64,000 bases of DNA from positions 248,001 through 312,000 of the forward strand of contig JACRQG010000013.1 of assembly GCA_016222805.1 (NCBI GenBank), given 5' to 3'. The translations under genes and the position numbers were made by a program. Origin of the DNA: Verrucomicrobiota bacterium (lineage in GTDB: Bacteria > Verrucomicrobiota > Verrucomicrobiia > Opitutales > Opitutaceae). Positions 8,572 through 38,442 of the stretch are shown one piece after another (the stretch's first letter is position 1; every line of letters starts with the position of its first letter). The notes under the pieces are model-generated. The model was not told the DNA's origin, made no database searches, and saw only the letters and a list, made by a program, of their open reading frames with translations.

Positions 8572-9569
8572 TTCAGGTCGGCCGCGCGATGGAAGCCGTC
8601 GGCGACGACGGTGGCCTCCAGGTTGGAGCGATCCACGGTGACGATCGCCTCGAAGATCGAGGGCACGTCCTTGAGACCGTTGTGCAGGGTGGAGGTGGCG
8701 GCCGGGCGGCCGCCTTTCGCGACTTCCACCGCCACGCGCGCGGCGAGCGAGGCAAGGTTCTTCAGTGGCTTGTACACCGTCATTGCCTGGGTGCCGCGGA
8801 GGATGCGGTGGCACGCGGCCAGATCGGCATCCTGGCCGGTGACGAGCACCTTGCCGGCGAGACCATCCTCCTGGAGGGCCTGGATGGCCCCTCCGGCGGT
8901 GCCGTCGTTGGAAACGACCACGGCATCGATGGCGCGTCCGGCCTTGGTGACGGCGGCGTTCATGATCTTCTTGGCGTTTTCCGGTTTCCAATCGAGCGCC
9001 CAGTCCTCATGCACGACCTGCACCCGGCCGGCCTGAATCAAGGGACGGAGGATATTGTCCTGTCCCTGCTTGAAGAGCTTGGCGTTGTTGTCCGTCGGAG
9101 CGCCGTAGATTCTGACGATGCGGGCGGGACGATCCTGCGGGAGCCGGTCGGCCGCATACCGCGCCTGGGCCTCGCCGACCTTCACGTTGTCAAAGGTGAG
9201 GTAGTAATCGATCGCGGAGTTCAGAATCAACCGGTCGTAGGCGATGACCGGGATCTTCGCCTCGTTGGCCGACTTCACCGCGCGTGTCATCGCCTCGCCG
9301 TTGTGCGGCACGATTACCAGCACGTCGACCTGGCGGCTGATGAGTGATTCCACGTCGCGAATCTGGCGGGTGTCGTCGCTATTGGCGGACTGCACGATGA
9401 CGGAGGCGCCGAGCTTTTTCGCCTCGGCGATGAAGGTGTCGCGATCGCGCTGCCAGCGCTCCTCCTTGAGCGTGTCCAGCGAGAGCCCGATGACGGGCTG
9501 GGCGCGGGAGGCGAAGGCGGCGGTGGCGCCTGCGAGGAAGAGGAGGAGCAGGGCGGAAAGGTGGCGCAT
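8568..9569 (-). CDS. xylF: Xylose-type periplasmic sugar-binding protein
   Basis: Periplasmic binding protein (333 aa) that captures sugar for XylGH. A cleavable signal peptide is evident (MRHLSALLLLFLAGATAAFA). The mature part is a Peripla_BP_4 fold with GLSLDTLKEERWQRDRD, the hinge-proximal LVIVPHNGEAM and VIAYDRLI, which resemble XylF more than RbsB. First gene of the xylFGH operon; it diverges from the nucleotidyltransferase at 9624 over a 54-nt gap that must hold both promoters. Confidence 0.88.
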   Translation of the reverse strand: MRHLSALLLLFLAGATAAFASRAQPVIGLSLDTLKEERWQRDRDTFIAEAKKLGASVIVQSANSDDTRQIRDVESLISRQVDVLVIVPHNGEAMTRAVKSANEAKIPVIAYDRLILNSAIDYYLTFDNVKVGEAQARYAADRLPQDRPARIVRIYGAPTDNNAKLFKQGQDNILRPLIQAGRVQVVHEDWALDWKPENAKKIMNAAVTKAGRAIDAVVVSNDGTAGGAIQALQEDGLAGKVLVTGQDADLAACHRILRGTQAMTVYKPLKNLASLAARVAVEVAKGGRPAATSTLHNGLKDVPSIFEAIVTVDRSNLEATVVADGFHRAADLK

Positions 9570-9623
9570 GACAGACGGGAGAGGGATTTACATCCGGTCG
9601 GGAATCGTGAGGCTTGCAGGCGC

Positions 9624-10121
9624 GTGACCCTCGACAATCCAAAACTGCACACCCTGGCCGGCGCGATGGAGTGGCGGGAGCGCGAGCGGGCGGCGGGCCG
9701 GCGCGTGGTGCTGACCAACGGGGTCTTCGATCTCCTGCACACCGGGCACTTGTACTATCTGCAGCAGGCGCGGCGGCTGGGCGGGGCCCTGATCATCGCG
9801 CTTAATGCCGACGCCAGTGTGCGGGCGCTGAAGGGGCCGACCCGGCCGGTGCAGTCGGAGGAACAGCGGGCGTATGCGCTCGGGGCGCTGGCCTGCGTGG
9901 ATGCCGTGGTGATTTTCCGAGAACCGCGGCTCGTGGCGGAAATCGAGTCCTTGCGGCCCGACGTCTATTGCAAGGCGGGGGATTATACCCTGGAGAAGCT
10001 GGATCCCGGCGAACGGGCGGCGCTCGAGCGAGCCGGAGCGCGGATCGAGTTCCTGCCCTTCCTGCCCGGGTTCAGCACGACCAGCCTGATCGCGCGGATC
10101 AAGGCGGCGGGCGAGATCTGA
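9624..10121 (+). CDS. rfaE2: D-glycero-beta-D-manno-heptose 1-phosphate nucleotidyltransferase
   Basis: Activates heptose-1-phosphate with a nucleotide for lipopolysaccharide core synthesis. The 165-aa protein is a stand-alone RfaE domain II. TNGVFDLLHTGHLYYLQQAR near residues 30-50 is the cytidylyltransferase-family motif with HTGH, and NADASVRALKGPTRPV is the usual nucleotide-site segment. I place the start at the GTG at 9624, preceded by CAGG; the longer frame from 9561 overlaps the xylF start and looks random. The kinase half (RfaE domain I) is not adjacent. purN follows after 6 nt. Confidence 0.88.
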   Translation: MTLDNPKLHTLAGAMEWRERERAAGRRVVLTNGVFDLLHTGHLYYLQQARRLGGALIIALNADASVRALKGPTRPVQSEEQRAYALGALACVDAVVIFREPRLVAEIESLRPDVYCKAGDYTLEKLDPGERAALERAGARIEFLPFLPGFSTTSLIARIKAAGEI

Positions 10122-10712: not shown

Positions 10713-11420
10713 ATGGAAGGACGTCCGCGCATCCTGATCATCGAGGACGAGCCGGCGATTGCGGACACGCTCCTCTACGCCCTTCGGACGGAGGGCTTCG
10801 ACCCCGAATGGTGCGCGACCGGGCGGGCGGGTCTCGCGGCGCTGGCCGCCAAGCCCTTCGCGCTCGTGGTGCTGGATGTGGGGTTGCCAGATGGATCCGG
10901 CTTCGAGGTCTGCAAACGGATCCGGACCACGTCCGCCGTGCCGGTGATCTTCCTCACCGCGCGGAACTCCGAACTGGATCGGGTCCTGGGCCTGGAGATA
11001 GGCGGGGACGACTACCTCGTGAAACCCTTCAGCCCGCGGGAGCTCACCGCCCGGGTGAAGGCGGTGCTCCGGCGCAGCGCGACGGCGCCGACGTCCGGGG
11101 CTGCCGCGGTGCCGCCGCCCCCAGTCGCACCCGGACTGATGGTGGATGAGGAACGGTGCACCGTCACGTTTCACGGTTGTCCGCTCGAGCTGACCCGCTA
11201 CGAGTTCCGGCTGCTGCGCGTGCTGGCGGCCAAACCTGGGAGGGTGTTTTCGCGCGAGCAACTCATGGCCGCGGCTTGGGAGGATCCCGGTGCCAGCCTC
11301 GACCGCACGGTCGACGCCCACATCAAGCTGGTGCGCGCGAAGCTGCGCGCCGTGGCCCCGGAGGCGGACCCGATTGTGACGCATCGCGGACTGGGGTACT
11401 CATGGCGCGCAGGCGGCTGA
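10713..11420 (+). CDS. OmpR/CreB-type response regulator
   Basis: DNA-binding response regulator (235 aa). The receiver has the acidic pair in IIEDEPAI, the phospho-acceptor Asp in VVLDVGLPDGSG (about residue 54), Thr in FLTARN and Lys in DDYLVKPFSPREL. A short Ala/Pro linker leads to a winged-helix Trans_reg_C domain ending in THRGLGYSWRAGG. Overall it most resembles CreB. The partner kinase begins 10 nt downstream. A shortened creD-like gene exists 18 kb away at 30537. Confidence 0.88.
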   Translation: MEGRPRILIIEDEPAIADTLLYALRTEGFDPEWCATGRAGLAALAAKPFALVVLDVGLPDGSGFEVCKRIRTTSAVPVIFLTARNSELDRVLGLEIGGDDYLVKPFSPRELTARVKAVLRRSATAPTSGAAAVPPPPVAPGLMVDEERCTVTFHGCPLELTRYEFRLLRVLAAKPGRVFSREQLMAAAWEDPGASLDRTVDAHIKLVRAKLRAVAPEADPIVTHRGLGYSWRAGG

Positions 11421-11430
11421 GGGGGATGCC

Positions 11431-12807
11431 TTGAAGGTCCGCACGGCCATCTTCGGGGTCTACGCCAGCGCATTGGTGCTGGGCTTTGCGGCGATGACGG
11501 TGCTCGTCCTGCGGGACGTGCGGCTGCGGTACGTGGAGTCGATGCGGCGGACGATGGGGGACACCGCGGCGTTTCTGGCCGCTTTCGTGGCGACGGAGGG
11601 GGGGGCAGTGGCGGGCTGGCCGGTGCGCTTGGGGCAGCTCCCGCCTCGCGCGGAACTCCTGCGGGTGTTTGCCTGCGATGCCAACGGAGTCGTGGTTTTC
11701 GACTCGGCGCACGGACAGGCCGTCGGGCAGACGTACCAGTGGCCGATGCGTGGCGGCGGGCCGGTGGCGTCGGAAAACTACACCGTTTCAAACGTCGCCG
11801 AGGTGGCGGGGGAACTCCGGGTGGCGGCTCCGGTGCGGCGACAGGGGCAGCTCCTTGGCTGGGTGGGAGTGGGGCGTCCGCTGGCGGCAGTGGCGCCCGG
11901 GATTGCGGAGGCCCGGCGGAAGTTGGTGTGGTCCCTTGGCGGCGTCGCGTTGGTGATGGCGGCGGCAGGGTGGTGGGTGGCGTCGCGGCTCACGCATTCC
12001 CTGGAGCGGTTGACGGAGTATGCCCGCATCGTGCGGGATGGTGGCGCGGCCACGCCGCCGGTGTCGCGCGCGCGCGAGGTCGCGACCCTGGCGCGGACGT
12101 TTGAGGAGATGCGCGTGGCCCTGGAGGGCAAGGCGTACGTCGAACACTACACGCAGGCTCTGGCCCATGCCCTGAAGGCGCCGCTTTCGGGCCTGCGGGG
12201 GGCGGCGGAACTGCTGGCCGAGAATCCGCCGGAGGAGGCACGGGTCCGCTTTGTCGCCAACCTGCGGGCGGAGACGGAACGGCTGCAGCAACTGGTTGAT
12301 CGTCTGCTGGAACTGGCGGCGCTGGAGTCGCGGCGGGCGGGAGTGGGGCAGTCGGAGGTGGATCTGGGCGAGATTGTGCGGGCGGTGGAGGAAGCGGTGC
12401 AGGGTACGGCCGCGGCTCGCGGCATCACGCTTTCGGTTGCGTCCGGAACCGGCGGATTCGTGCGCGGGGAGAAGTTCCTGCTGCAGCAGGCGGTCGAGAA
12501 CCTGGTGCTGAACGCGCTGGCGTTCACCCCGGCCGGCGGAAAGGTCGGGGTGGCGGTGCAACCTGGGGAGCAGGAGCTGGCGGTCGTGGTGGAGGACAGT
12601 GGTCCGGGCGTGCCGGACTATGCGCTGCCGCAGGTATTCGATCGTTTCTATTCTCTGCCGCGCCCGGACACCGGGCGGAAAAGCAGCGGGCTGGGCCTGA
12701 GCATCACGCGGGAAATCGCGCGCCTCCACGGGGGACGGGTCAGCCTGGCCAACCGCGATGGGGGCGGCGCGAGGGCGGAGTTTGTGCTCCCGCGCGCCCG
12801 TCCCTGA
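11431..12807 (+). CDS. CreC-like sensor histidine kinase
   Basis: Membrane sensor (458 aa) for the preceding regulator. The start is the TTG at 11431, preceded by GGGGGAT and opening KVRTAIFGVYASALVLGF; no better ATG exists before the first membrane helix. Layout: TM1 (about 5-27), a periplasmic sensor (about 28-165), TM2 (about 168-190), HAMP, the H-box QALAHALKAPLSGL with phospho-His near residue 248, N-box ENLVLNALAF, G1 DSGPGVPD and G2 GLGLSITREIARLHGG. The TM and sensor layout is CreC-like; the signal is unknown. Confidence 0.85.
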   Translation: MKVRTAIFGVYASALVLGFAAMTVLVLRDVRLRYVESMRRTMGDTAAFLAAFVATEGGAVAGWPVRLGQLPPRAELLRVFACDANGVVVFDSAHGQAVGQTYQWPMRGGGPVASENYTVSNVAEVAGELRVAAPVRRQGQLLGWVGVGRPLAAVAPGIAEARRKLVWSLGGVALVMAAAGWWVASRLTHSLERLTEYARIVRDGGAATPPVSRAREVATLARTFEEMRVALEGKAYVEHYTQALAHALKAPLSGLRGAAELLAENPPEEARVRFVANLRAETERLQQLVDRLLELAALESRRAGVGQSEVDLGEIVRAVEEAVQGTAAARGITLSVASGTGGFVRGEKFLLQQAVENLVLNALAFTPAGGKVGVAVQPGEQELAVVVEDSGPGVPDYALPQVFDRFYSLPRPDTGRKSSGLGLSITREIARLHGGRVSLANRDGGGARAEFVLPRARP

Positions 12808-13409
12808 GCGGCTTGCCGGGATTCTCGTGGGTCTCTTCGCGGAGGAGGCCGGGCAGGGTGGAAAGCAGGACGCGAAAACCCCGGTTCGATTGACGCCGGA
12901 AGGTGATTTGAACTCCCCGATTCCGAACACGCCCGCCGCCGGGCGGGGAATCCCCTGCGATTTTCTCCGGGGACAAACCTGGCGACGGGTGGTCCTCCCA
13001 TAGCCCCGAGGCATCGCTGCCCAAGGCAGTGGGTATTGGCGCGTGTTACCAACTTCTGGTTCAATACTGCGGTGATACAGTCACATAGCAGAGTCGTGTT
13101 TTCCCGGGGCGGTGTTACCGGCGGCGGTTCTGCCGCGAGGGCGATGAACTCCCTTGCGTTCATGCGGCGCTGGACCCGGGTCGCCGGCGGGTCAGGTCCG
13201 TGGAATCGTCTCTTGGCCGAACCGCTGGTTCCGGCGGGCGGCACTTCGCCGGTTCCGCTGCCGCAAGAGGCAAATCCGGAATCCGGACGTACCTGTTCGC
13301 CATGCGCGTCAGCCAACGCGCCGCGCGTCGCGCGCCGACTCGTGCGAAACGTGCGCCGGGTTCCCCGGATCGGACCGCCGCGGCCGGCCGGCGGCAGATG
13401 GAGTTCTTG
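12808..13409 (+). other. 602-nt intergenic region with regulatory element E
   Basis: No convincing gene. Just after creC is a weak terminator-like hairpin, CCCGCC/GGCGGG around GCCG at 12932-12947, without a T run. Element E (13000-13039) follows. An open frame from ATG 13144 to 13410 (88 codons, Arg/Pro/Ala-rich) ends in TGATG, overlapping the sugar transferase start; it may be a translated leader or chance. Confidence 0.5.
13000..13039 (+). promoter_or_regulatory. Conserved 40-nt regulatory element, copy E
   Basis: Begins ATAGCC and ends GGTATTGG, with GGCATCG at 11-17 and CCAAGG at 22-27. Points at the sugar transferase (13410), 370 nt away, or at the leader frame at 13144. It shares ends and exact length with four other copies in the window and is closest in sequence to copy D. 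Confidence 0.7.
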
Positions 13410-14186
13410 ATGCCAAGGAAGCGCCAAGGGTGGACCAGTGGCTTCGCTCAATGGCCGAGACTCGCAGCGGGGACCTTCCGCGGCGGGCGCGCATGCCCTG
13501 GGAACGGGGCCAGGGCGTCAGGGGCAGAAGCAGCGTCGGACCGCGGTCGCCTTTGGGTCCCGGGTTGGAAGCGAGGAATCGACCTCCTTTGTTGCGTCGT
13601 CGGCATTCCACTCTTTGCGATCGTGACCCTCGGCTGGGCGTTGGTGCTCCGTCTTTCCTCTCCCGGCCCGCTTCTGTTCCGGCAGGAACGGGTCGGGCGC
13701 TTGGGGGTCCGGTTTCAGATCTTCAAGTTCCGCACGATGCAGCACTCCGGAGGGGCGAACAAGCACCGGCAACACATGACCCGGATGATCGAGAACAACG
13801 CTCCCATGCACAAGTTGGACACCACGGGTGACTCGCGGCTGATCCCGGGTGGCTGGCTGCTGCGCGCACTCGGTCTGGACGAGATTCCCCAGCTCGTGAA
13901 CGTCTGGCGGGGTGAGATGAGCATCGTCGGACCACGACCGTGCATTCCGTACGAATACGAGTACTACACCGAGATCCAGCGCGAGCGCTTTCACGGCGTC
14001 CCGGGGCTCACCGGATTGTGGCAGGTGTCCGGCAAGAACCGAACCACCTTCGAGGAGATGATCCACCTCGACCGTGAGTACCTCCGGCGCCAGTGCCTGC
14101 TGCTCGATCTGTGGATCATTGTCCTGACCATCCCGGCACTGTGCGTTCAGCTTGGAGATACCCTCAGAAGCCGGCTCTGCCGCTAG
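13410..14186 (+). CDS. Undecaprenyl-phosphate sugar transferase (exopolysaccharide initiation)
   Basis: Bacterial sugar transferase that loads the first sugar-phosphate on undecaprenyl phosphate. The 258-aa protein has one membrane helix (LLCCVVGIPLFAIVTLGWALVL) and the family core: SSPGPLLFRQERVGRLG, FKFRTM, LDEIPQLVNVWRGEMSIVGP and the PGLTGLWQVSGKNR block. I chose the ATG at 13410 because GGAG lies 6 nt before it; ATG 13398 or starts further upstream are possible. There is no multi-pass N-terminus of the WcaJ kind. Element E lies upstream. No polymerase, flippase or other glycosyltransferase gene is next to it, so it is an orphan here. Confidence 0.88.
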   Translation: MPRKRQGWTSGFAQWPRLAAGTFRGGRACPGNGARASGAEAASDRGRLWVPGWKRGIDLLCCVVGIPLFAIVTLGWALVLRLSSPGPLLFRQERVGRLGVRFQIFKFRTMQHSGGANKHRQHMTRMIENNAPMHKLDTTGDSRLIPGGWLLRALGLDEIPQLVNVWRGEMSIVGPRPCIPYEYEYYTEIQRERFHGVPGLTGLWQVSGKNRTTFEEMIHLDREYLRRQCLLLDLWIIVLTIPALCVQLGDTLRSRLCR

Positions 14187-14420
14187 CGCCCATGCACGCC
14201 GGGACTTCTGCGATTAAGGGTCGGTCGAATGAGAAGCGCTGGCGAAGGTGCCGCCGCGGAAAGCCCGAAATCCCACGCCCGAACGCCGTTCTGCCAGTGG
14301 TACGGACGGGCCAGACGGTGGGCCGGGATCCCGGCTGGTGGGCCGGGCGCCGTCCCGGCGGCCGAGCAACCGCCGGTCTCCCGTGCCGACCTGCAGTCGG
14401 CGGCGATCCCGCCCTTTCTC

Positions 14421-14900
14421 ATGAGTGATCTGAGTCGATATGGTGGCGCGTGCCGTTGCCTGCTGCGCCTGCGGGAGAACCTCGGGGCTCCCGGCCGGTC
14501 GGATGCCGCCTTCATCGCGGAGTTTCTGCCGCGCTATCCCGAGTGGCGGGATTTTCCCGGCGCCACCGACCTTTTCGCGCTGCTGGAACTTGCGAAGGCG
14601 CTGCTTCCCCAGACGGCAGGGCGTTTCGAGGTTTTTCGCGACTACGCCCGCATCCTGCGGGAGCATCGGTCCGGACAGGGGATCATCATCTACACTGAAC
14701 GCGCTCCGGAGCAAAACGAACTGACCCTGGAGGACCAGCGGCATGTGCTTTTGCTGGTCGAGGCGGACGAGGACGCCTTTGTGGTGTGGTGCCCGTATCG
14801 CAGTGGACAGTCGGCACTGCTTCCGCGGGCGGAGCGGCGTTGGTGGGACAGGTGGCTGGCCATCGGCATCGTCCTCCAGCCCCCGGGCATGATTCGGTGA
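14421..14900 (+). CDS. Hypothetical protein, possible C39-like fold
   Basis: Not recognised with confidence. The 159-aa product has a Cys-containing start (YGGACRCLLRL), a helical middle, then a beta-rich end with GIIIYTERAPEQN, DQRHVLLLVEADEDAFVVWC and YRSGQSALL. The order Cys, a His before a hydrophobic strand, then a short strand-turn recalls papain-like C39 domains, but the usual Asp is not clear and activity is not implied. The start ATG at 14421 follows a long in-frame extension that looks non-coding. It follows the sugar transferase by 234 nt, a gap in which I see nothing. Confidence 0.5.
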   Translation: MSDLSRYGGACRCLLRLRENLGAPGRSDAAFIAEFLPRYPEWRDFPGATDLFALLELAKALLPQTAGRFEVFRDYARILREHRSGQGIIIYTERAPEQNELTLEDQRHVLLLVEADEDAFVVWCPYRSGQSALLPRAERRWWDRWLAIGIVLQPPGMIR

Positions 14901-15019
14901 GGTCGCGGCGTCCGTCCGGTGCCCGTTTTCGGGAAGCCCGACGGCACTTTCGGCTGGGCGCACGTTCAGCTGCGGAGGATGACGGTGCCGGTCGGACTCA
15001 GCCCCATCGCCTGGGCGGC

Positions 15020-15331
15020 TTACTCCATTAGCTGGAGCAGGGCGGGAGTAGTGCCAGTGGTTGTGCCAAAGGACAAGAGTCGCACGCCTGTTGCGACCGG
15101 AGGAACCGCCGACGTCGCCGTGTTCTGCACGGAGCATTGCCGGTCGAGCTCCGTCTCATCGGTCAGTTCCCGTTTGGCCTCTTCGTAGTCGACTTGATCC
15201 ACTTGCGGTGGAACGCGGCCGGCGCGCAGCGCCAGTTCGCGGGTGCGGGTGAGGATCACTTCTCGGGTCACCGGTGCCAAAGGGCAAGAGTTCGCGGACG
15301 GGAGTGAAGGCAGGTGGGAGTTCGGATTCAT
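15020..15331 (-). CDS. DUF2934-like small protein
   Basis: A 103-aa product whose middle, TREVILTRTRELALRAGRVPPQVDQVDYEEAKREL, resembles the short helical DUF2934 domain (R-A-x-x-L-x-x-x-G-R ... D-x-x-x-A-x-R-E-L). Such proteins are of unknown function and are common near stress genes in soil and plant-associated bacteria (from memory). The C-terminal third is low-complexity Thr/Val/Gly. No clear ribosome-binding site precedes the ATG. It is the last in a minus-strand series that starts at element B. Confidence 0.5.
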   Translation of the reverse strand: MNPNSHLPSLPSANSCPLAPVTREVILTRTRELALRAGRVPPQVDQVDYEEAKRELTDETELDRQCSVQNTATSAVPPVATGVRLLSFGTTTGTTPALLQLME

Positions 15332-15375
15332 GAGATCAAAGGGTGAGCATGGGTAGAAATCGGGCAGTGGCCTCG

Positions 15376-15597
15376 CTAGCGCGCAAACAGCGCCTCGAGG
15401 CCCGCTCGCGACATTTGCCGCCGAGCCCCGACGACTGCCATCGCGACGTCTAACTGGGGTTCAGTTGCGTCACGCAGCACTGCTAGGCCAAAGAGTTGCC
15501 GGCGCACGTCGTTTGCGTCGCACGCGGCGACGAAAATTTCGAGGGCGCCGTTGGTGGCCTGCTGGGAAGGGGTGATTGGGGATTCGCGGTGGTACAT
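15376..15597 (-). CDS. Small hypothetical protein
   Basis: Unrecognised 73-aa product beginning MYHRESPITPSQQATNGAL. It is predicted to be mainly helical (EIFVAACDANDVRRQLFGLAV, then QLDVAMAVVGARRQMSRAGLEALF). The open frame continues upstream to 15711, but that extension overlaps the omega-like gene at 15669 and is Pro-rich. It sits between the omega-like gene and the DUF2934 gene. Coding potential is inferred from composition only. Confidence 0.4.
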   Translation of the reverse strand: MYHRESPITPSQQATNGALEIFVAACDANDVRRQLFGLAVLRDATEPQLDVAMAVVGARRQMSRAGLEALFAR

Positions 15598-15668
15598 GGA
15601 ATGCGGCGGATCGGGGAGAGGTAACGCGCACCAAAGGGGGGACCGACAGGCCGGGCGCGGATTCGGTT

Positions 15669-15941
15669 TCACGAAGGGGAAGGTAGCCCCGGGTTTGGGT
15701 CCGGGGGCCACACCGGTGGATTGCCGCCCCGAGGCGGCGGATCCTGCCGGGGCAGCGCATAGGTGATTCGGCCTTCGGCGATCTCGCGCAGGGCGATGTC
15801 CGTGGGAGAGAGTTTTTCCAGCGACACCACCAGTGGGCGGAAGCCGCGTTTCAGCTGTTTTACACGCCGGGAAACGACGTTTACCAAGATGTTCGGGTCG
15901 TCGATGACTTGGAGCGCACTCTGGAGATAGTCGTTTCTCAT
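15669..15941 (-). CDS. rpoZ: RNA polymerase omega subunit-like protein
   Basis: A 90-aa protein whose first 63 residues match omega: DPNILVNVVSRRVKQLKRGFR with the conserved helix, followed by LSPTDIALREIAEGRITYAL. Omega aids assembly of beta-prime and, in many bacteria, mediates ppGpp effects. The tail (PRQDPPPRGGNPPVWPPDPN) is Pro-rich and atypical. Its place among stress and hypothetical genes, not beside gmk or coaBC as is common, suggests a paralogue; I cannot see whether the genome has another copy. No Shine-Dalgarno is evident before ATG 15941. Confidence 0.75.
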   Translation of the reverse strand: MRNDYLQSALQVIDDPNILVNVVSRRVKQLKRGFRPLVVSLEKLSPTDIALREIAEGRITYALPRQDPPPRGGNPPVWPPDPNPGLPSPS

Positions 15942-16011
15942 GGGGTGTGGTTTTGGATGAGTACCGCCGTCTTCGGCGCGGGCGGACGGGGTGCCAAGTT
16001 CCCTGTGGGCA

Positions 16012-16665
16012 TCATGGACGGTCCAGGATGGTTCGGCTGCTCCCCGACGGCTGGGCCGGAGTCGCTTTGTCGGGCAACTCGTGATCCGCCGGGGGGCCGC
16101 TCCCTTTGCGAGGGCCGGGCGACGCCAATGGTCCCAGTAGGACGGAGCTGAGGCTCGGGTGTTGCTCGAAGAACCCCGCGAGACTTGGGTGGGCCATCAA
16201 GAAATCTCCGGCGACGATCTGAGATGGAGCATCGTCGAGCTTCCGTCGAATCTCGGGGTTCGCCCGCAGAAACGTGTCGAACGCGATCATGTCGGCCCGA
16301 AGTAGCGGACCCCTCGTGCGCCGCAGGACGTGGCGGTAGATCAGGAAATGTCGTTCAACCTTAAGCGCGGGTACGATGCCCGGGCGTTGGATCAGCAAGA
16401 TCTCGATTTCCGGCATCGAACGGCGGAATCGCTCATCGTCCATCCGGTCGATGCTCGTCCGCAGCACGTCCTCCAGCGCCGGTTTGCTGTCCAGGAGGCG
16501 GTCCAACTCCACCAACTCCCGCCGGACCGTCTCATCTGTAGTCAGGATGGCGTCCGTAATCCTGGAAATTCCCGGGGGCGCCGGTCCGGAGGCACTGCAG
16601 AGATTGATCGCGAAGCAGAGGCCCAGCGGCAGACGCAGCAGGCCGGTGAAGGAGCGGATTTTCAT
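16012..16665 (-). CDS. Secreted helical protein of unknown function
   Basis: Not a family I can name. The 217-aa product begins with a signal peptide (MKIRSFTGLLRLPLGLCFAINLCSA). The mature part is helical with a repeated pattern of FLxxNP/HP turns: FDTFLRANPEIRRKL, FLMAHPSLAGFF and EQHPSLSSVLL, plus MPEIEILLIQRPGIVPAL earlier. The end is Pro/Ser-rich. The start may instead be ATG 16674 (three residues longer). Element B ends 24-33 nt before these starts. The secreted helical repeat suggests an envelope or binding role. Confidence 0.6.
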   Translation of the reverse strand: MKIRSFTGLLRLPLGLCFAINLCSASGPAPPGISRITDAILTTDETVRRELVELDRLLDSKPALEDVLRTSIDRMDDERFRRSMPEIEILLIQRPGIVPALKVERHFLIYRHVLRRTRGPLLRADMIAFDTFLRANPEIRRKLDDAPSQIVAGDFLMAHPSLAGFFEQHPSLSSVLLGPLASPGPRKGSGPPADHELPDKATPAQPSGSSRTILDRP

Positions 16666-16698
16666 GAGCCCCATGATGCCTGCCAGTCGACCGGCCTC

Positions 16699-16738
16699 CC
16701 AATACCTTGTTCGCATCGGGCCGATAGTCGTGGACTAT
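16699..16738 (-). promoter_or_regulatory. Conserved 40-nt regulatory element, copy B
   Basis: On the minus strand it begins ATAGTCC and ends AACAAGGTATTGG, with TATCGG at 13-18. It lies 24 nt before ATG 16674 and 33 nt before ATG 16665, a normal promoter-to-start distance, and 36 nt after the stop of the 82-aa repeat gene. Closest to copy A. Confidence 0.72.
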
Positions 16739-16774
16739 GGCCGGGCCCACGCGTGCGCCGCGGGTGACCGGCGG

Positions 16775-17023
16775 TCAGGTGGCGGTCCCGTGCAAGCCGA
16801 GGCCGTCTGGTCCGTGAATCGCGATCGTGCCGTCCTGTCTGATGCGGCCGTGGTAGTAGGTGCCGTGCGGACCGTGCAACGAGACTTGCCCGTCTCCTTG
16901 CGTGTCGCCGTGGACGTAACCACCTCCGGACATGCGGAGTGAGAAATCGCCGGTGGCCGAAAGCGTGCCGTGCATGCAGATTCCACCGGGGCCGTGCAGT
17001 GAGACACTTCGCTCGGTGTTCAT
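16775..17023 (-). CDS. His/Gly repeat protein with exact 20-residue period
   Basis: Unrecognised 82-aa protein made almost entirely of four 20-residue repeats. Residues 9-19, 29-39, 49-59 and 69-79 align as LHGPGGICMHG, LRMSGGGYVHG, LHGPHGTYYHG and IHGPDGLGLHG. His at the last-but-one position is invariant (18, 38, 58, 78), and His/Arg at the second position is near-invariant (10, R30, 50, 70). Such regular short repeats usually fold as a beta-solenoid. There is no signal peptide. It follows the oxidoreductase by 79 nt and is probably the last gene of the hsp20 operon. A metal-binding or scaffold role is speculative. Confidence 0.6.
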   Translation of the reverse strand: MNTERSVSLHGPGGICMHGTLSATGDFSLRMSGGGYVHGDTQGDGQVSLHGPHGTYYHGRIRQDGTIAIHGPDGLGLHGTAT

Positions 17024-17102
17024 GTGAATCGCCCGCGAAAGTCATGATCTGCACTGGGGCCAGGCTGCGGTGACACGGCGATCAGCGGCGGCGGCACGGG
17101 CG

Positions 17103-18041
17103 CTAGACGACTCGCAGCACGATCTTGCCCCGCGTATGGCCGAGCTCGCCCAGTTGGTGCCCGCGGGCGGCATCGCAGAGCGGAAGGATTTTTCCGACCG
17201 TGGCGGCGAGGTGGCCGGCGTCGACCAGCTTGGCCAGCTCGGCCAACTGGGTCGCATTCGGCTGGGAACGCACCCACGCCTGCCGGACACCGTGGCTGGC
17301 CGCGATCTCCGCCGATGGAGGATCGACGAGTGAAACCAGGATGCCTCCTTTCTTGATCAGCTTCCAGGAGCGCGCCTGGACGTCTCCGCCCAGCGTGTCG
17401 AGGACCACGTCAACCGGGCCCGTGACCTGCTCGAAGGGCGCCGCCTGGTAGTCGACGACTTCGTCGGCGCCGAGACGCCGGAGCAAGCGGTGGTCGCGGG
17501 CCGAGGACACGGCGATGACGTGCGCGCCGGTTCGCTTCGCCAGCTGGACCGCCAGCAATCCGACACTTCCCGCCGCCGCGTGGATCAACACCGCCTGGCC
17601 CGCTCCGAGGTGGGCGGTGTCGAAAAGCGCCTGCCACGCGGCCAGCCCGGCGAGGGGCAGCGCCGCCGCGTGGACGTGGTCGATGGACTGCGGTTTCAAT
17701 GCCACTTCGGTTTCCCGCACCACGATGAACTCGGCGTAGGCCCCGTCACGCGACGTATCCGGCCGGCTGAAGACCCCGTCGCCGACGTTCAGACGGAGAA
17801 CGCCGGAACCGACGATTTCCACCTGGCCGGATAAGTCCCAGCCCAACACCAGCGGCAGCGTGTGGTGGAGCATGGCCTGGAGGTGTCCTTCGCGGACCTT
17901 CCAATCGATCGGGTTGATTCCGGCGGCATGCACCCGGATCAGCACTTCGCCTGGGCCTGGACGCGGGCACGGCATCTCCTGGTAGACGAGGACACCGGGT
18001 CCGCCGTAGGAGTAGATGCACACTGCTTTCATGGTTCTCAT
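17103..18041 (-). CDS. NADPH:quinone oxidoreductase-like MDR protein
   Basis: Zinc-independent medium-chain dehydrogenase/reductase, 312 aa. N-terminal GroES-like domain (PGEVLIRVHAAGINPIDWKVREG), then a Rossmann domain with AAAGSVGLLAVQLAKRTGAHVIAV for NADPH; the GHE zinc motif is absent. Members reduce quinones and reactive carbonyls, so a detoxifying role fits the stress context. The start ATG at 18041 overlaps the stop of the preceding gene as ATGA, implying translational coupling; ATG 18032 is an alternative. Confidence 0.85.
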   Translation of the reverse strand: MRTMKAVCIYSYGGPGVLVYQEMPCPRPGPGEVLIRVHAAGINPIDWKVREGHLQAMLHHTLPLVLGWDLSGQVEIVGSGVLRLNVGDGVFSRPDTSRDGAYAEFIVVRETEVALKPQSIDHVHAAALPLAGLAAWQALFDTAHLGAGQAVLIHAAAGSVGLLAVQLAKRTGAHVIAVSSARDHRLLRRLGADEVVDYQAAPFEQVTGPVDVVLDTLGGDVQARSWKLIKKGGILVSLVDPPSAEIAASHGVRQAWVRSQPNATQLAELAKLVDAGHLAATVGKILPLCDAARGHQLGELGHTRGKIVLRVV

Positions 18042-18784
18042 GGCGCAGTCTCTTTCCGGGAGGCATAGAATGCCCGTGCCTTGGCGAGCAATTGACCGGC
18101 GGAAAGGTGCTTTTCGTCCACGACTACCGACCCGATGATGCGGCCAGCCAGGTCGGGCCGATGGAGACCGGCCCAGGCGATGAATTGATCCATCTCGCTG
18201 CTCATGCCGGTGCCTGCCCCGAACACGAGGATCGGGCCGCCCTCCGGGAGGGCACTCGCCACGGCGGCAAAGAAACTGATCGGGTCCGGCTTTTCCCTGC
18301 CGCGGGTGAAGTTCCGCGAGTTGGGCGCCGGACGAAAGTTGTCCGCCGGGGGATGCGGCAGGATTCGCTCCGGAATCGCCTTCTTGATTTCGGAGCGGAA
18401 GACCCGGGCTTCGTGGTGGTTGATCACGAGCAGCCAATGCACTGCAGGGTCCTCTGCGTCCGGCGAAATTGCCTCGGATTGCTCCAAGTACCGGCGAAGG
18501 GCCGCCAGCTCATCCGGTGAGGCGAAATCAGCCTCGTTGCGCGGCGGATGCAGGATGAAGACCCGACCGCGGCGGATCACTCTCAGGTTGCCGGACGGAT
18601 CCTGCATCACCCGACCAAGGGTCTTCAGCAACCTTCGCAGCGCCCCCCACTCCAGCGGGAGAAGGTCCGGGGTTGCCGCCCCTGCGTGGCGAATGCGCCG
18701 TGGCTTGCCGTTCTGATCCGTCGTCGAGGGCATGTTCCGGGGTTGGGGGCTGGTTGCTGGATTGCGGTCGGGCCGCTGGCGCAT
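18038..18784 (-). CDS. baeRF / host-attachment-like (eRF1-fold) protein
   Basis: The 248-aa protein resembles the bacterial eRF1-like (baeRF) family, often labelled host attachment protein. Supporting parts are LEWGALRRLLKTLGR, an N-domain ending in RYLEQSEA, then VHWLLVINHHEARVFRSEI (typical strand-turn of the family) and GPILVFGAGTGMSSEMDQFI. The family is proposed to act on stalled ribosomes, but this is not experimentally firm. The start ATG at 18784 has GAGGAA 5 nt upstream, better than ATG 18733. It lies 24 nt after hsp20 and is coupled to the oxidoreductase gene. Confidence 0.65.
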   Translation of the reverse strand: MRQRPDRNPATSPQPRNMPSTTDQNGKPRRIRHAGAATPDLLPLEWGALRRLLKTLGRVMQDPSGNLRVIRRGRVFILHPPRNEADFASPDELAALRRYLEQSEAISPDAEDPAVHWLLVINHHEARVFRSEIKKAIPERILPHPPADNFRPAPNSRNFTRGREKPDPISFFAAVASALPEGGPILVFGAGTGMSSEMDQFIAWAGLHRPDLAGRIIGSVVVDEKHLSAGQLLAKARAFYASRKETAP

Positions 18785-18808
18785 TCGTTCCTCGGCGGAG
18801 CCGGCACC

Positions 18809-19264
18809 TCACCCGAGCTTGACTTCGACCGGTCGCGGCTGGGCTTTCGCCTCCTTGTTCAAGTGAACCGTCAGGATGCCATCCTTGAACTCGGCGCTGA
18901 CCTTCTCCGGACTGGTGTCCGCCGGCAGCGAGAAGCTGCGCGCAAAGCTACCGTAGGTGCATTCCACCCGATGGTACCTCCGGCCTTTCTCCTCTTTCTC
19001 GAACTTGCGTTCGCCACTGATGGTGAGCGTGCCCTCCTGCGCCGTGACCTTGACGTCCTCCTTTCTCACCTCCGGTAACTCGGCCTTGATCCGGTACTCC
19101 ACGTCGTCCTCGCTGATGTCGACGAGCGGGGCCCATTCGGCCACCGCAATCGGTTCCTGCTGGCCCTCTGGCCAGTGCGTGGGCGTGCGATTGAGCAGGT
19201 TGCCGAGGCTGAGTTCCAGGGCTTCCAGCTGTTTTCTCTGTTTCCAGCGGGTTAGTGCATTCAT
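18809..19264 (-). CDS. Small heat-shock protein Hsp20/IbpA
   Basis: ATP-independent holdase. The 151-aa protein has the alpha-crystallin domain (about 42-140): APLVDISEDDVEYRIKAELP, VRKEDVKVTAQEGTLTISGER, GSFARSFSLP and the conserved FKDGILTVHLNK with a G-I-L core. The ATG at 19264 is preceded by AAAAGGAACC. First gene of an operon hsp20-baeRF-oxidoreductase (-repeat protein). Element A lies 130 nt upstream on the same strand, so this operon is probably a target of that system. Confidence 0.95.
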   Translation of the reverse strand: MNALTRWKQRKQLEALELSLGNLLNRTPTHWPEGQQEPIAVAEWAPLVDISEDDVEYRIKAELPEVRKEDVKVTAQEGTLTISGERKFEKEEKGRRYHRVECTYGSFARSFSLPADTSPEKVSAEFKDGILTVHLNKEAKAQPRPVEVKLG

Positions 19265-19647
19265 GGTTCCTTTTTGTGGGCGGTGGCGGTTTCACGCCCA
19301 AGGGGGGCCGCCCTTTAAGGGTCCGGACTTCGGCGGTCATCCCGTGGCGCGCGATTCTCGTCGGCAGGAGGATAACCCTGCTTTCAGCGGCGCCCCAATA
19401 CCTTGTTGGCATGGGGCCAATACGCGCCGGCTATCGCGCCCCGGGGGGCGACGCGGACCCGGCCCCGGGAGCGAGGGTGAGAGGGGCGGAAGTCCGCCCG
19501 CCCTGGCCGGGTGCCGCGACGGTCTCTCGTGATCCGCCTCCGCCCGATCAGGCGTCGTGGCCTGCCGGAGTCTGCCGGGTGAAGAGATCGTCGAGGGTAC
19601 CGGAACCGCCGACAGAACGCTGGCGCGCTCTGGGAGCGGCCGTGAGC
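19265..19647 (-). other. 383-nt intergenic region with element A
   Basis: Between the hsp20 start and the LysR stop. It contains regulatory element A (19395-19434), the presumed 130-nt hsp20 leader with a GC-rich tract at 19297-19330, and no open frame I would support. Confidence 0.5.
19395..19434 (-). promoter_or_regulatory. Conserved 40-nt regulatory element, copy A
   Basis: Read on the minus strand it starts ATAGCCGG and ends AACAAGGTATTGG, with GTATTGG also at 12-18, giving a direct repeat 22 nt apart. It points at hsp20 (start 19264), 130 nt away. Ends and length are identical to the other four copies. Confidence 0.72.
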
Positions 19648-20550
19648 TCAGGTTCGGACCATCGCTTCCGCTTTTACGACCTCGATGTACTGCGCCAGGG
19701 CCTTTGAACGGTTGCTGCTGTGCCAGGCGATCCAGAAATCCGCCCGCGCGGTCGGGGCCAGGGGACGGAAGACGACGCCCGGATGGGGGAGGTGGCGGAT
19801 CTGCTCGCGCGCGAGGGTGACGCCCAACCCTTCCGCCACGAAGGTCATCAGGCCCGCCTCGAACTCCACATCCTGCAGAACCCGGGGGGTGAAGCCGGCT
19901 TCCGCGCAGAGGGCTGACAACCAGTCGCGCGAGCCGGGGTGAGTCTGTTCGGACAGTGCCACAAAGAAATACGGTTTGAGATCCCGCAGGAGGATGGTCC
20001 GTTTCCGGGCCAGGGGGTGCCCGGCCTGCAGGACGACGACGACCTGGTGATGGGCGACGCATTCCCAGGTGAGCATGCCGGGGTTCTGTGCGCTGGCCGG
20101 CGGACGCAGGCCGACAAACCCCAGGTCGATCTTCCGCGCCTCGAGGGCGCGAAGCTGTTCGGCGGGGGACATGTCGAACAGATTCACGGCAATCTCCGGC
20201 CGGACTCGATAGAAGGTGGCGAGGGTTCCCGGCAGGAGGTCGAAGTTGAACCGGAACAGGTAGCCGAGATTCAGCTGGCCGGACTCACCGCGGCTAAAGC
20301 GCTGCACCGCCTCGACGCTTTCGAGACTCAGGGTCACGAGCCGCCGGGCATCCACCAGAAAACTCCGGCCCTCGTCGGTGAGAGTGATTCGGCTCTTGCT
20401 GCGATCCAGCAGCCGGACCCCCAGTTCTTCCTCCAGGCTCTGGATTTGCCGCGTGAGCGACGGCTGGGCCACGTGCAGTCGTTCCGCCGCACGGGTGAAG
20501 TTAAGTTCATCCGCCACCGCCACGAAATAGCGCAGGTGACGCAGTTCCAT
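19648..20550 (-). CDS. LysR-family transcriptional regulator
   Basis: 300-aa regulator. The N-terminal winged HTH is textbook (MELRHLRYFVAVADELNFTRAAERLHVAQPSLTRQIQSLEEELG), followed by a periplasmic-binding-protein-like effector domain. The ATG at 20550 begins the conserved HTH; the open frame upstream to 20754 runs through element C and is not coding. It diverges from the radical SAM gene at 20837. LysR proteins often control the divergent neighbour, so that gene is a candidate target; the effector cannot be inferred. Confidence 0.92.
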   Translation of the reverse strand: MELRHLRYFVAVADELNFTRAAERLHVAQPSLTRQIQSLEEELGVRLLDRSKSRITLTDEGRSFLVDARRLVTLSLESVEAVQRFSRGESGQLNLGYLFRFNFDLLPGTLATFYRVRPEIAVNLFDMSPAEQLRALEARKIDLGFVGLRPPASAQNPGMLTWECVAHHQVVVVLQAGHPLARKRTILLRDLKPYFFVALSEQTHPGSRDWLSALCAEAGFTPRVLQDVEFEAGLMTFVAEGLGVTLAREQIRHLPHPGVVFRPLAPTARADFWIAWHSSNRSKALAQYIEVVKAEAMVRT

Positions 20551-20621
20551 ATCCAGGACCCTAATATTCCCGGGGCGCGTTGTGCTCAACCCGAAAGCAC
20601 CTTTTTCCCGCCTTTGGGCCA

Positions 20622-20661
20622 ATAGCTGCCGGGCATGGTCACCCAAGAAAAAAGGTATTGG
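20622..20661 (+). promoter_or_regulatory. Conserved 40-nt regulatory element, copy C
   Basis: Starts ATAGCTGCC and ends AAAAAAGGTATTGG, with GGCATGG at 11-17 and CCAAG at 22-26. Located between the divergent LysR gene and the radical SAM gene and oriented to the latter, whose ATG is 175 nt downstream. Confidence 0.7.
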
Positions 20662-20836
20662 CCGGCTTCCGATGACCGGAGGAGAATGGAGCGATGATGC
20701 GGAGAGCGTACGGCAACCGATGTCTTCCCCAACGGCACGAGACCGTCGTCGCAACCGCGCCCGTGCTATCCGTTGGCGATGCGGCCGGGCCGGGATTCGG
20801 GCGCCTGCAGGGTTACTCGTGCGGGGGTCTCCGACG

Positions 20837-22336
20837 ATGAACGCGCTTCTCCTCTATCCCGAGTTTCCGTCCACCTTCTGGAGCTTCAAGCATGCGTTGA
20901 AGTTCATCTGCAAACGCGCCTCGCTGCCGCCGCTCGGGCTCCTCACGGTTGCGGCTCTGCTGCCGCGCTCCTGGCGTCTCCGTCTGGTCGATCTGAACGT
21001 GCGTGCGCTTTCCGATCGTGATCTGGCGTGGGCCGATCTCGTGTGCCTCAGTGCGATGATGGCGCAGGGCGCCTCGGCGCGGGCGGTGATCGCGCGCTGC
21101 CGCGCCGCGGGCAAGATTATCATCGCGGGCGGCCCGCTCTTTACCAGCGCATCCGCGGACTTCCCGGAGGTGAATCATTTCGTGCTCAACGAGGCGGAAT
21201 TGACGCTGCCCGAGTTCCTCCATGATTTCGCGCGCGGGAGTCCCCGGCGCCTCTATGCAACCGCCCAGTTTGCCGACATTCGCCAGAGCCCGACGCCTCG
21301 CTGGGACCTCGCCGAGGTGCGACGGTATGCGTCTTTGTCGCTCCAGTTCTCGCGGGGCTGCCCGTTCGACTGCGAGTTCTGCGACGTCACCGCGAAGTTC
21401 GGCCGCCTGCCGCGCAGCAAGTCGGCGGACCAGGTCATCCGGGAATTGGAGGCGATCCGCACCACCGGCTGGCGAGGCCCGGTCTTCTTCGTCGACGACA
21501 ACCTGATCGGGAACAAGCGGGCCCTGCAGCTGGAACTGCTGCCGGCCTTGCGGGCGTGGCAGCGCGCCCAGCGCCACCGCTTCCCTTTCTTCACCGAAAC
21601 TTCCGTCAATGTGGCAGACGACGAGGGACTCCTGCACCAGCTGGCGGACGCAGGCTTCGACACGGTCTTCGTCGGAATCGAAACCCCGGATGCTGCGTCC
21701 CTCGCGGAATGCAACAAGCGCCAGAACCAGGGGCGCGACCTCCTGGCCGATGTGAAACGCATCCAGCGCGCCGGCCTGCAGGTCCAGGGCGGGTTCATCG
21801 TCGGCTTCGACAGCGACGTTCCGAGTGTCTTTCAGCGCCAGGTGGAGTTCATCCAGCAGAGCGGCATCGTGACAGCGATGGTGGGTCTGCTCAACGCCCT
21901 GCCCGATACCAAGCTCCATGCGCGACTCCAGCGGGAAGGCCGCCTGCTGGGCACGTCGACAGGCGACAACGTCGATGGCACGACGAACTTCAAACCGCGG
22001 ATGGCGATGGACCAGTTGATGGAGGGCTACCACTCGATCCTGCGCCGCATCTACGCGCCCGGGCCGTACTACCAGCGGATCCGGACCTTCCTGCGGGAGT
22101 ACCGGCGGCCGCGGGTCGCCGCCCCGCTCAGCTGGCGCCATGCCTTTGCGTTCGCCTGGTCGAGCGTGCGGTTGGGCCTCATCGGTTGCGAGCGCCTCCA
22201 GTACTGGCGGTTGATCGGCTGGACCCTCTGCCATCGACCGGCCCTGCTGCAACTGGCGGTGACGCTCTCGATCTATGGCCTGCATTTCCGCAAGTGCTGC
22301 GACGCCCTGGGGGCCGGATCCTCGGCCACTTCATAG
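20837..22336 (+). CDS. B12-binding-domain radical SAM protein (DUF4070 type)
   Basis: 499-aa enzyme. An N-terminal cobalamin-binding-like domain (about 1-140) precedes the radical SAM core with C175xxxC179xxC182 in SRGCPFDCEFCDVTAKFGR, which binds the 4Fe-4S cluster. FVDDNLIGNK, ETSVNVA and FVGIETP are strand motifs of the barrel; the tail (about 370-490) is the DUF4070 region. Related enzymes methylate or rearrange unactivated carbons, for example the hopanoid methylase HpnP; the substrate here is unknown. The ATG at 20837 is chosen because conserved sequence begins there (MNALLLYPEF). The stop overlaps the start of element D. Confidence 0.85.
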   Translation: MNALLLYPEFPSTFWSFKHALKFICKRASLPPLGLLTVAALLPRSWRLRLVDLNVRALSDRDLAWADLVCLSAMMAQGASARAVIARCRAAGKIIIAGGPLFTSASADFPEVNHFVLNEAELTLPEFLHDFARGSPRRLYATAQFADIRQSPTPRWDLAEVRRYASLSLQFSRGCPFDCEFCDVTAKFGRLPRSKSADQVIRELEAIRTTGWRGPVFFVDDNLIGNKRALQLELLPALRAWQRAQRHRFPFFTETSVNVADDEGLLHQLADAGFDTVFVGIETPDAASLAECNKRQNQGRDLLADVKRIQRAGLQVQGGFIVGFDSDVPSVFQRQVEFIQQSGIVTAMVGLLNALPDTKLHARLQREGRLLGTSTGDNVDGTTNFKPRMAMDQLMEGYHSILRRIYAPGPYYQRIRTFLREYRRPRVAAPLSWRHAFAFAWSSVRLGLIGCERLQYWRLIGWTLCHRPALLQLAVTLSIYGLHFRKCCDALGAGSSATS

Positions 22337-22372
22337 CTGCAGGGCATCGCTGACCAAGGAAGAAGGTATTGG
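22333..22372 (+). promoter_or_regulatory. Conserved 40-nt regulatory element, copy D
   Basis: Starts ATAGCTGC, whose TAG is the stop of the radical SAM gene, and ends AGAAGGTATTGG. GGCATCG at 11-17 and CCAAGG at 22-27 match copy E. It ends 32 nt before the osmC ATG, a promoter-like distance, and would drive the osmC-nfeD-slipin-hpt-phosphorylase series. Confidence 0.75.
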
Positions 22373-22404
22373 TACGGCAGCGCGGGGCGTGGGAAGGTAC
22401 ACTC

Positions 22405-22902
22405 ATGAAGCTGATCCTTCGACGGGCTGCAGTGCGTTGGACTGCCGGGAAGCGGGGCGACTTTCGCCTGGTGACGACCGACAGCGGGGCCCTGAGCCTG
22501 GCACCGTTCTCTTCAACTCTCCGGCAGAGCAATGTTTCGGATGGAAACACCGCCGTGCTCATCGCCGCGGCGCACGCAGCCAGCTTTTCACAGGCCCTGG
22601 CGCAGGAACTCGGGAAGGCGGCACTCCTGGGCGGCGACATTCTCACGTTGGCCCTGGTGACGATGGAGCTACTCCCGGCGGGATGGACGATGGTGAACAC
22701 CCATCTGAATGTCGTCGCTCGGTTGCCGCACGCGACGCAGGGCCGCTTTATCGATGCGGCAGTCCGGGCCAAGACTCTCTGCCCGGTTTCGCGCGCCTTA
22801 CGCGTCACCATTTCGATGAATGCCAAGCTCGAGCGGGAGGTCCGCCGCCGGAGGTCCGGGCGCAAGACCCCGCAGCCCGGAGTGACGGCACGAAAGGCGT
22901 AA
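22405..22902 (+). CDS. osmC: OsmC/Ohr-family protein lacking the first catalytic Cys
   Basis: OsmC-type proteins reduce organic hydroperoxides with two cysteines. This 165-aa protein aligns along its length: LSLAPFSSTLR, LIAAAHAASFSQALAQELG, and KTLCPVSRAL with the second Cys at residue 126. At the first Cys site (E. coli OsmC Cys59, in HAACFSM) it has Ser60, codon AGC. Peroxidase activity by the usual mechanism is therefore doubtful. The C-terminus is basic. GGGAAGG lies 9 nt before the ATG. It heads an operon; nfeD begins 14 nt downstream, and element D lies 32 nt upstream. Confidence 0.85.
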   Translation: MKLILRRAAVRWTAGKRGDFRLVTTDSGALSLAPFSSTLRQSNVSDGNTAVLIAAAHAASFSQALAQELGKAALLGGDILTLALVTMELLPAGWTMVNTHLNVVARLPHATQGRFIDAAVRAKTLCPVSRALRVTISMNAKLEREVRRRRSGRKTPQPGVTARKA

Positions 22903-37579: not shown

Positions 37580-38073
37580 CAGGAGCTCTGCTTGATCTTG
37601 AACAGACGCTGGCCGTATTCGACCGGCTGGCCGTTATCCACCAGCACCTCCAGCACGGTCCCCTTGGTTTCGGCCTGGATCTCGTTCATGATCTTCATCG
37701 CCTCGATGATGCAGACGACCGAGTTTTCCACGATTTTCGCGCCGACATCTGTGAAAGGCTTACTTTCCGGGGAGGCGGCGCGATAGAAGGTACCCACCAT
37801 GGGGGACTTGATGTAGCTCACCCCTGCTTCTTCAGCCGCGGCGGCGGCCGGGGCTGGTGCGGGAGCGGCAGCGGCCGCCACCGGCAGGGGCATCGGGGGA
37901 ACCGTGTCGACCTGCACAAACGGCGGATTGGAGCCCCGGACGGTGCTCACCACCGGCAGTCCATTCGTCCCCCGTCGAATCTTGAGCTTAAAACCCTCTT
38001 CTTCCACCGCGAACTCGGTCAACTCCGAGCGCTTCATCAACTCGATGATCTGTTTGATCTGTTTGAGGTCCAA
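37579..38073 (-). CDS. accB: Acetyl-CoA carboxylase, biotin carboxyl carrier protein
   Basis: Biotin-bearing subunit, 164 aa. The family start [30 protein letters not shown] corresponds to the TTG at 38073; the open frame upstream to 38217 is not conserved. An Ala/Pro linker ([18 protein letters not shown]) leads to the lipoyl-type domain with the biotin site EAMKIMNE. It heads the accB-accC operon. The promoter must lie in 38074-38195, which I could not resolve further. Confidence 0.93.
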
Positions 38074-38194
38074 AGGAAGCCTTGGTTGTGTGTTGAGTGG
38101 GCTGGAAGCGTTAGTGTGCTTTTGCGGAGGGCCGTTCAAAAGAAAGCCGCGGCTGCGCGCAATACCTGATTTTTCTCCTCTTGCCGAGAATTGG

Positions 38195-38220
38195 CAAAAG
38201 CGCCCGAAAGCGGGCATTTT
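38195..38220 (-). terminator. Possible terminator downstream of htpG
   Basis: Hairpin GCCCG/CGGGC with a four-base loop at 38202-38215. On the minus strand the stem is followed by GCTTTTG; on the plus strand by ATTTTC. It lies about 230 nt past the htpG stop and upstream of accB, so it could close htpG transcription in either view. Confidence 0.4.
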
Positions 38221-38234
38221 CTGCGCAGAATCAG

Positions 38235-38353: not shown

Positions 38354-38442
38354 GGTTTTTCGTATCCGGCGAATGAGGACCGGTTCGGCGTCAACACTGA
38401 CGCCGGTGTCTCCCAAAACCGCCTCGGTACCTGACGAAAGGG

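Follow-up and report, generated by a model that had tools for sequence, protein, structure and literature searches.

A 40-nt repeat beside OsmC, Hsp20 and other genes in a Verrucomicrobiota genome is the probable operator of a LysR-type regulator

The repeat and the regulator gene at the locus

A 40-nucleotide (nt) element occurs in five copies within a 64,000-nt stretch of the genome of a Verrucomicrobiota bacterium (Opitutaceae; assembly GCA_016222805.1, contig JACRQG010000013.1, positions 248,001 to 312,000), here called the window, and the gene for a LysR-type transcriptional regulator (LTTR), lysR, is located within the cluster of copies. The element was found in a first-pass annotation, which considered it unrecognised and took it for the promoter or operator of a stress regulon. 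The comparison of sequences described below indicates that it is very probably the operator of the LysR protein. The features concerned are as follows, with element positions counted from the first base of the element and continued past its end.

13000..13039, + strand: element copy 1; dyad 13000-13014, candidate second site 13022-13036, TTGG 13036-13039, -10-like TTCAAT 13060-13065
16699..16738, - strand: element copy 2; -10-like CATCAT 16673-16678, ATG at element position 74 (16663-16665)
19395..19434, - strand: element copy 3; -10-like TATCCT 19369-19374, Hsp20 start ~130 nt downstream
19648..20550, - strand: LysR-type regulator, 300 aa, start at 20550; Pfam HTH_1 1.2e-25, LysR_substrate 2.3e-34
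20622..20661, + strand: element copy 4; divergent from lysR, whose start lies 71 nt from the beginning of the copy; -10-like GAGAAT 20682-20687
22333..22372, + strand: element copy 5; -10-like GAAGGT 22393-22398, OsmC ATG at element position 73

The coordinates, strands and invariant bases first noted all match: ATAG (1-4), AT (14-15), G (17), A (29) and GGTATTGG (33-40) are fixed in 5/5 copies. Within the window only these functional-looking columns are fixed and the flanks are unrelated. The copies had been placed between genes, which is true except for copy 5, where the last 4 nt of a radical SAM gene are overlapped. Copy 1 has the lowest matrix score of the five (28.4 vs 44.2-48.5).

The pattern without A29 gave 5 hits in the window at up to 3 mismatches vs 0.26 expected, and 0/100 shuffles reached 5. 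The genome-wide search proposed in the first-pass annotation found 5 exact hits in 7,906,178 bases, clustered in 9.4 kb and not scattered at random; allowing 2 mismatches added 2 hits, equal to the 2 from a reversed-pattern control. The regulon is local, not genome-wide. No exact copy was found in the 26 other genomes of the genus searched, and Rfam at its gathering threshold gave no hit near the cluster.

Anatomy of the probable operator

Positions 1-15 of the element form an inverted repeat, ATAG-N7-NYAT, with T2-N11-A14 in 5/5 window copies. The T-N11-A box is that of LysR-type operators, as given in the accessible part of PMC8407307. Dyad symmetry was examined in 23 sites with at most one mismatch to a search pattern: five from the window, ten from genome G197, two each from loci L038 and L039 and four from genome G392. 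In this set the selecting pattern itself largely dictates T2-N11-A14. The dyad centred at position 8 was the best of 160 centres (68%, z 6.2, a figure that includes pattern-fixed bases). Since the selecting pattern fixes some of the dyad bases, the test was repeated on unfixed pairs only, where the same dyad was again the best, now of 148 centres, with 51/92 pairs complementary (z 4.3). Several of the G197 sites are near-duplicates, and a less redundant subset of 17 sites gave 33/68 (z 3.7). The first dyad is thus firm from comparison of sites across genomes.

The remainder of the element resembles half of a second site. GGTATTGG contains GTATTGG (34-40), of which the GTAT half (34-37) is invariant, and the centre of this candidate second site lies 22 bp from that of the first, which is two helical turns. 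Copies 2 and 3 have ATGC as its left half, with which T-N11-A is complete. This spacing, the invariant right half and analogy with known operators suggest a site for a second dimer. GGTATTGG was first suggested to be the -10 or a binding site. It is probably not the -10, and reads as the right-hand half of a second site that leads into a -35-like TTGG.

The site and the regulator in relatives

Among the 80 loci kept from a scan of genome contigs with the LysR protein, three are close: L038 (79% identity), L039 (78%) and L040 (76%; Pedosphaera sp. RYN_627). The remaining 77/80 show no more than 40% identity over long matches, or short N-terminal matches only. Homologous loci in related Verrucomicrobia had been suggested as a check, and all three close loci keep the element divergent from lysR (2, 1 and 2 mismatches, respectively) together with further copies at 0-1 mismatch, again at neighbouring genes. 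L040 probably belongs to genome G197, so the two are not independent.

Across 384 genomes of the class, a LysR match at E<=1e-60 was present in 12 and the exact element in six (one for the reversed-pattern control). At least two exact copies occurred in 3/384 genomes (five in the genome studied here, eight in G197 and two in G392), all of them among the 12 with a LysR match. Leaving out the genome studied here, 2/2 multi-copy genomes fall within 11 of 383 (P about 7.5e-4). The other three genomes with the exact element (G129, G368 and G067) have one copy each and no LysR match at this threshold, and their copies were taken as chance. Slight loosening of the pattern raises G197 to 10 exact sites, of which 7 fall in a 36-kb part of the lysR contig. 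In G392 it gives 6 exact sites and a single site with one mismatch; all of these share a contig with lysR, at distances of 9-34 kb from the gene. Hits with one mismatch in other parts of G197 (4 vs 4 in the control) were left out.

The 300 nt upstream of 127 LTTR homologues were then scored with a matrix made from the 23 sites. In each of the 19 top-scoring regions the site is divergent from the regulator gene, although the lowest few of these scores are close to background. Scores of z>=6.7 over mononucleotide shuffles were obtained for 10 of the rows listed, six of which lie outside the training set of the matrix: L120, L121, L123 and L128 (40-54% identity) and the paralogues L019 and L020 (32-33%). 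L019, L020, L023 and L013 have ATAC in place of ATAG, with sites 7-14 nt from the lysR start. The operator is placed divergent from the regulator gene at window copy 4 and at L038, L039, L118, L120, L121, L123 and L128. The dyad, the spacing and this divergent placement are those of LysR-type operators, and the view of the element as unrecognised is not supported.

In genome G138 the LysR orthologue is apparently broken (L154, around 9085-9676, with an internal TGA in the match); the LTTR upstream scan gave no site there, and a one-mismatch element still lies beside the broken gene.

Candidate promoter columns and start codons

The strongest columns outside the 40 nt are A62 (20/23 sites) and T66 (21/23), neither of which is touched by the selection pattern. 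They correspond to the two most conserved bases of the sigma70 -10 hexamer. The -10-like hexamer at 61-66 lies 20-26 nt past the end of the element and begins 18 nt after TTGGnn (37-42). In the 17-site subset A62 occurs in 14/17, T66 in 15/17 and an ATG at 72-77 in 11/17; in 14 further sites, chosen from the better-scoring rows, the counts are 11/14, 8/14 and 8/14. The distant loci L019, L020, L023 and L013 have TAGACT, TAGACT, TATTCT and TAGAAT exactly at 61-66.

An ATG begins within 71-76 in 15/23 sites, and other six-base windows give 0-4 except 65-70 with 9/23. Position 73 is ATG at copies 4 and 5 and GTG at copy 1, with the ATG of copy 2 at 74. OsmC begins at position 73 in each of the four genomes of the 23-site set, and in G124 at 72. 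Two copies had been reported to end 24-33 nt before a start codon; this stands for copy 5 (33 nt to the OsmC ATG), while the ATG at position 74 makes a better start behind copy 2. The near-constant distance between operator and start codon extends to the distant LysR paralogues. At several of the G197 sites, as at copy 4, the ATG opens a short open reading frame (ORF) ahead of the main gene.

Given the hexamer with A62 and T66 and its spacing, transcription is expected to start near position 73. Together with the excess of ATG at 71-76, this suggests that many of these promoters give leaderless messages. We infer a LysR-controlled sigma70 promoter that is often leaderless. The first description of the region as a promoter or operator is supported.

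Two promoter copies in G197 (L143, 6637-6780 and 15855-16000) share, by eye, much of the next 100 nt although they stand before different genes, and the shared part includes a short ORF beginning ATGAATTC. This looks like duplication of a cassette of promoter and leader.

Genes near the sites

The genes at the window copies, and a two-component pair before copy 1, are as follows.

10713-12807, + strand: response regulator and histidine kinase, CreB/CreC-like; both above the NCBIfam CreB and CreC cut-offs
13200-14186, + strand: bacterial sugar transferase ORF, downstream of copy 1
16012..16665, - strand: 217-aa protein whose N-terminus resembles a signal peptide by eye; behind copy 2 and putatively leaderless, its start being the ATG at element position 74
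17103-18032, - strand: zinc-type dehydrogenase, after the 248-aa ORF
18038-18784, - strand: 248-aa ORF, after the Hsp20 gene
18809..19264, - strand: Hsp20 gene, behind copy 3
20694..20840, + strand: 48-codon leader ORF, starting at element position 73 of copy 4; its stop overlaps the radical SAM start (ATGA)
20837..22336, + strand: B12-binding/radical SAM protein with DUF4070, behind copy 4
22405..22902, + strand: OsmC-family protein, ATG at element position 73 of copy 5; followed by NfeD and SPFH proteins

The overlap of the leader ORF with the radical SAM gene suggests translational coupling. Copy 1 had been described as oriented to the sugar transferase; it does lie upstream, but the ORF carrying the domain begins well after it. 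The presumably secreted protein behind copy 2 was scanned from a longer 234-aa start and matched nothing in Pfam or NCBIfam at E<=0.001. Copy 2 is itself closely preceded, on its own strand, by an 82-aa ORF rich in HGP/HG repeats (16775-17023, - strand).

The OsmC-family protein of the window scores below both curated cut-offs (Pfam OsmC 23.1 bits, cut-off 27.5; NCBIfam OsmC 76.4, cut-off 85.8) and so is a divergent member of the family. A divergent lysR-osmC pair is found in 6/13 relatives (L038, L039, L142, L150, L152 and L153) and is absent from L148, L151 and L154-L158. OsmC matches at E<=1e-12 occur in 51/384 class genomes, far more than have the LysR protein; co-occurrence of the two genes is therefore uninformative and it is the divergent pair that informs.

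Twenty proteins encoded near the relatives' sites were scanned. They include OsmC, PRC-barrel, BON and ferritin-like proteins, single-domain receivers, a KaiC-type ATPase and PAS proteins, and also an RNB exoribonuclease, an AMP-binding enzyme, AraC/PocR regulators, an ATP-type phosphoenolpyruvate carboxykinase (PEPCK), SCO1 and one protein without a family. The stress regulon first proposed is plausible from part of this content, namely OsmC and Hsp20 here and the ferritin-like, BON, PRC-barrel and KaiC-type proteins in relatives. It is less well served by the sugar transferase, PEPCK, the AMP-binding enzyme and the AraC/PocR regulators, which are no stress genes in the plain sense. On gene content the local regulon may be called stress-leaning, with OsmC as its commonest member, and a stress response itself is plausible.

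Comparison with known LysR-type systems

The best matches of the LysR protein among solved structures are chains of BenM. In the BenM/CatM operators of Acinetobacter an ATAC-N7-GTAT dyad with T-N11-A is site 1 and a weaker site 2 lies over the -35, according to the part of PMC6628147 available. The element resembles these operators in the layout of the dyad, ATAn-N7-nTAT, and in the position of its candidate second site. It differs in having ATAG and not ATAC, in having several putative targets in one neighbourhood instead of catabolic operons, and in that these are stress-type genes with apparent leaderless starts.

OxyR operators consist of two ATAG-N7-CTAT repeats separated by a 7-10-bp interval (PMC8787470, accessible part). 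The first dyad and the 7-bp interval of the element fit this arrangement, and OsmC is a peroxide-related putative target. Unlike the OxyR operator, the second site here has only the invariant GTAT right half and no good left half. The redox cysteines of OxyR, C199 and C208, are 9 residues apart. The only cysteines of the LysR protein are 164 and 215, which do not have that separation, and with 77.2 bits against the NCBIfam OxyR cut-off of 329 membership of OxyR was rejected. The best NCBIfam match is AlsR, the acetoin regulator of the LysR family, but the score of 225.8 bits is below the cut-off of 430, so the protein is not a member of AlsR either; the target genes also differ.

Weighing the operator assignment

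Several results weigh against the assignment. The first dyad is weak when the five window copies are taken by themselves (9/20 unfixed pairs, rank 7 of 148). Unfixed pairs lend the second dyad no independent support (15/69, z -0.7), T24 occurs in 14/23 sites, and the left half in copies 1, 4 and 5 is CAAG with an incomplete T-N11-A. Our confidence in the LysR operator, high before, was lowered very slightly after this test failed to support the second dyad. Near lysR in L122 (G277), which encodes a 54% identical LysR next to an OsmC, no site could be recognised; the site beside lysR in L119 (G392, 53%) is only degenerate. No start codon falls at 70-81 for copy 3, before Hsp20, nor for two of the G392 sites. 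Lastly, the 26 genus-mates contain no close LysR orthologue, the best being 39% identical. These missing orthologues, with the missing exact elements in the same genomes, are the sole indication that suggests horizontal acquisition. A test for an island found even GC content (65.0-67.6% at 12-24 kb) and no tRNA in the window. The GC content of the window dips to 57.7% at 38001-40000 vs about 65-69% in most of it.

The alternative that survives best keeps the operator part of the assignment and makes the regulator mainly a repressor that releases on a signal. LTTRs are capable of both, and a site beside lysR would also permit autoregulation. The element ends at the -35-like TTGG, which is the place of the activating site 2 in the benA model (PMC6628147, accessible part), and we judge mainly repressive action to be rather unlikely.

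An alternative-sigma promoter (ECF or SigB-like), with GGTATTGG as -10 and ATnG as -35, would explain the fixed 40-nt length, the invariant 3' block, the orientation to genes and the stress gene content. A sigma promoter has no need of a dyad, yet 1-15 is the best dyad even on unfixed pairs; the site accompanies a LysR gene and is divergent from lysR in other families; and past the element comes the conserved -10-like hexamer, soon followed by start codons. No sigma factor was found among the 20 window proteins scanned around the cluster, the scan covering this part of the genome. The dyad and the more distant -10-like hexamer led us to set this reading aside, and we regard it as improbable.

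The sites might instead belong to the OmpR-type response regulator and kinase at 10713-12807, which end 0.2 kb before copy 1 and exceed the NCBIfam cut-offs for CreB and CreC; OmpR-type regulators likewise use repeated sites. The CreB tag is a TTCAC direct repeat. The element opens with an inverted repeat, inspection by eye shows no TTCAC tag in the five copies, and the relatives' sites accompany a LysR gene. Since the tag is lacking and the site goes with LysR elsewhere, this pair was set aside as a very improbable owner of the element. Least likely of all is a dispersed mobile or palindromic repeat (REP/MITE-like) free of regulatory function, for although some G197 copies share sequence beyond the element, the window copies share only the functional-looking columns, the osmC start is equidistant from the element in four genomes and the site accompanies one regulator gene.

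Proposed mechanism

For a LysR operator the following arrangement may be proposed. A first LysR dimer would bind the dyad ATAG-N7-NYAT (1-15) as its recognition site and a second dimer of the same tetramer would bind, at a distance of two turns on the same face of the helix, the site ending GTATTGG (23-37). The second dimer would thereby be placed against the -35-like TTGG (37-42) of a sigma70 promoter with its -10-like hexamer at 61-66. Transcription would start near position 73, and several messages would be leaderless or would begin with a short leader ORF. With a co-inducer, LysR would act as an activator of OsmC, and in the genome studied here also of the Hsp20 operon, the radical SAM protein, the secreted protein and perhaps the sugar transferase. 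The sequences show the repeat, the first dyad, the divergent lysR, the retention of site and gene in relatives, the -10-like columns and the surplus of ATG; binding by this LysR, the second dimer, the tetramer, activation and the leaderless starts are predictions.

The system is most likely of a known kind, a LysR-type operator with a local regulon. Less ordinary are the many local copies, the changing gene content and the apparently leaderless format. A wider view, which is possible but which we hold only tentatively, is that a LysR protein scattered across Verrucomicrobia families occurs together with a standard promoter cassette of ~75 bp (operator, -35, -10 and start codon at +1), copied before unrelated nearby genes to form a local regulon that varies by genome around an OsmC core, leaderless initiation being a built-in output of this branch of LTTR promoters.

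The open-licence literature searched contained no described regulon of this LysR/OsmC kind in Verrucomicrobia. Judged by titles and the beginnings of abstracts, it held nothing on leaderless promoters in Verrucomicrobia, and for GGTATTGG with promoter and LysR it gave only unrelated work on E. coli sRNA (small RNA). The analysis turns an anonymous repeat into a testable regulon with a named regulator gene, an exact operator, a predicted start site and a list of targets. The near-constant distance from operator to start codon makes the leaderless claim easy to test, and a local regulon whose content varies around an OsmC core lends itself well to studying how such regulons are assembled.

The single Rfam hit in the window lies far from the cluster and is an nhaA-I RNA, a putative riboswitch, at 55990-56042 on the - strand (RF03057, 50.9 bits vs a gathering score of 37).

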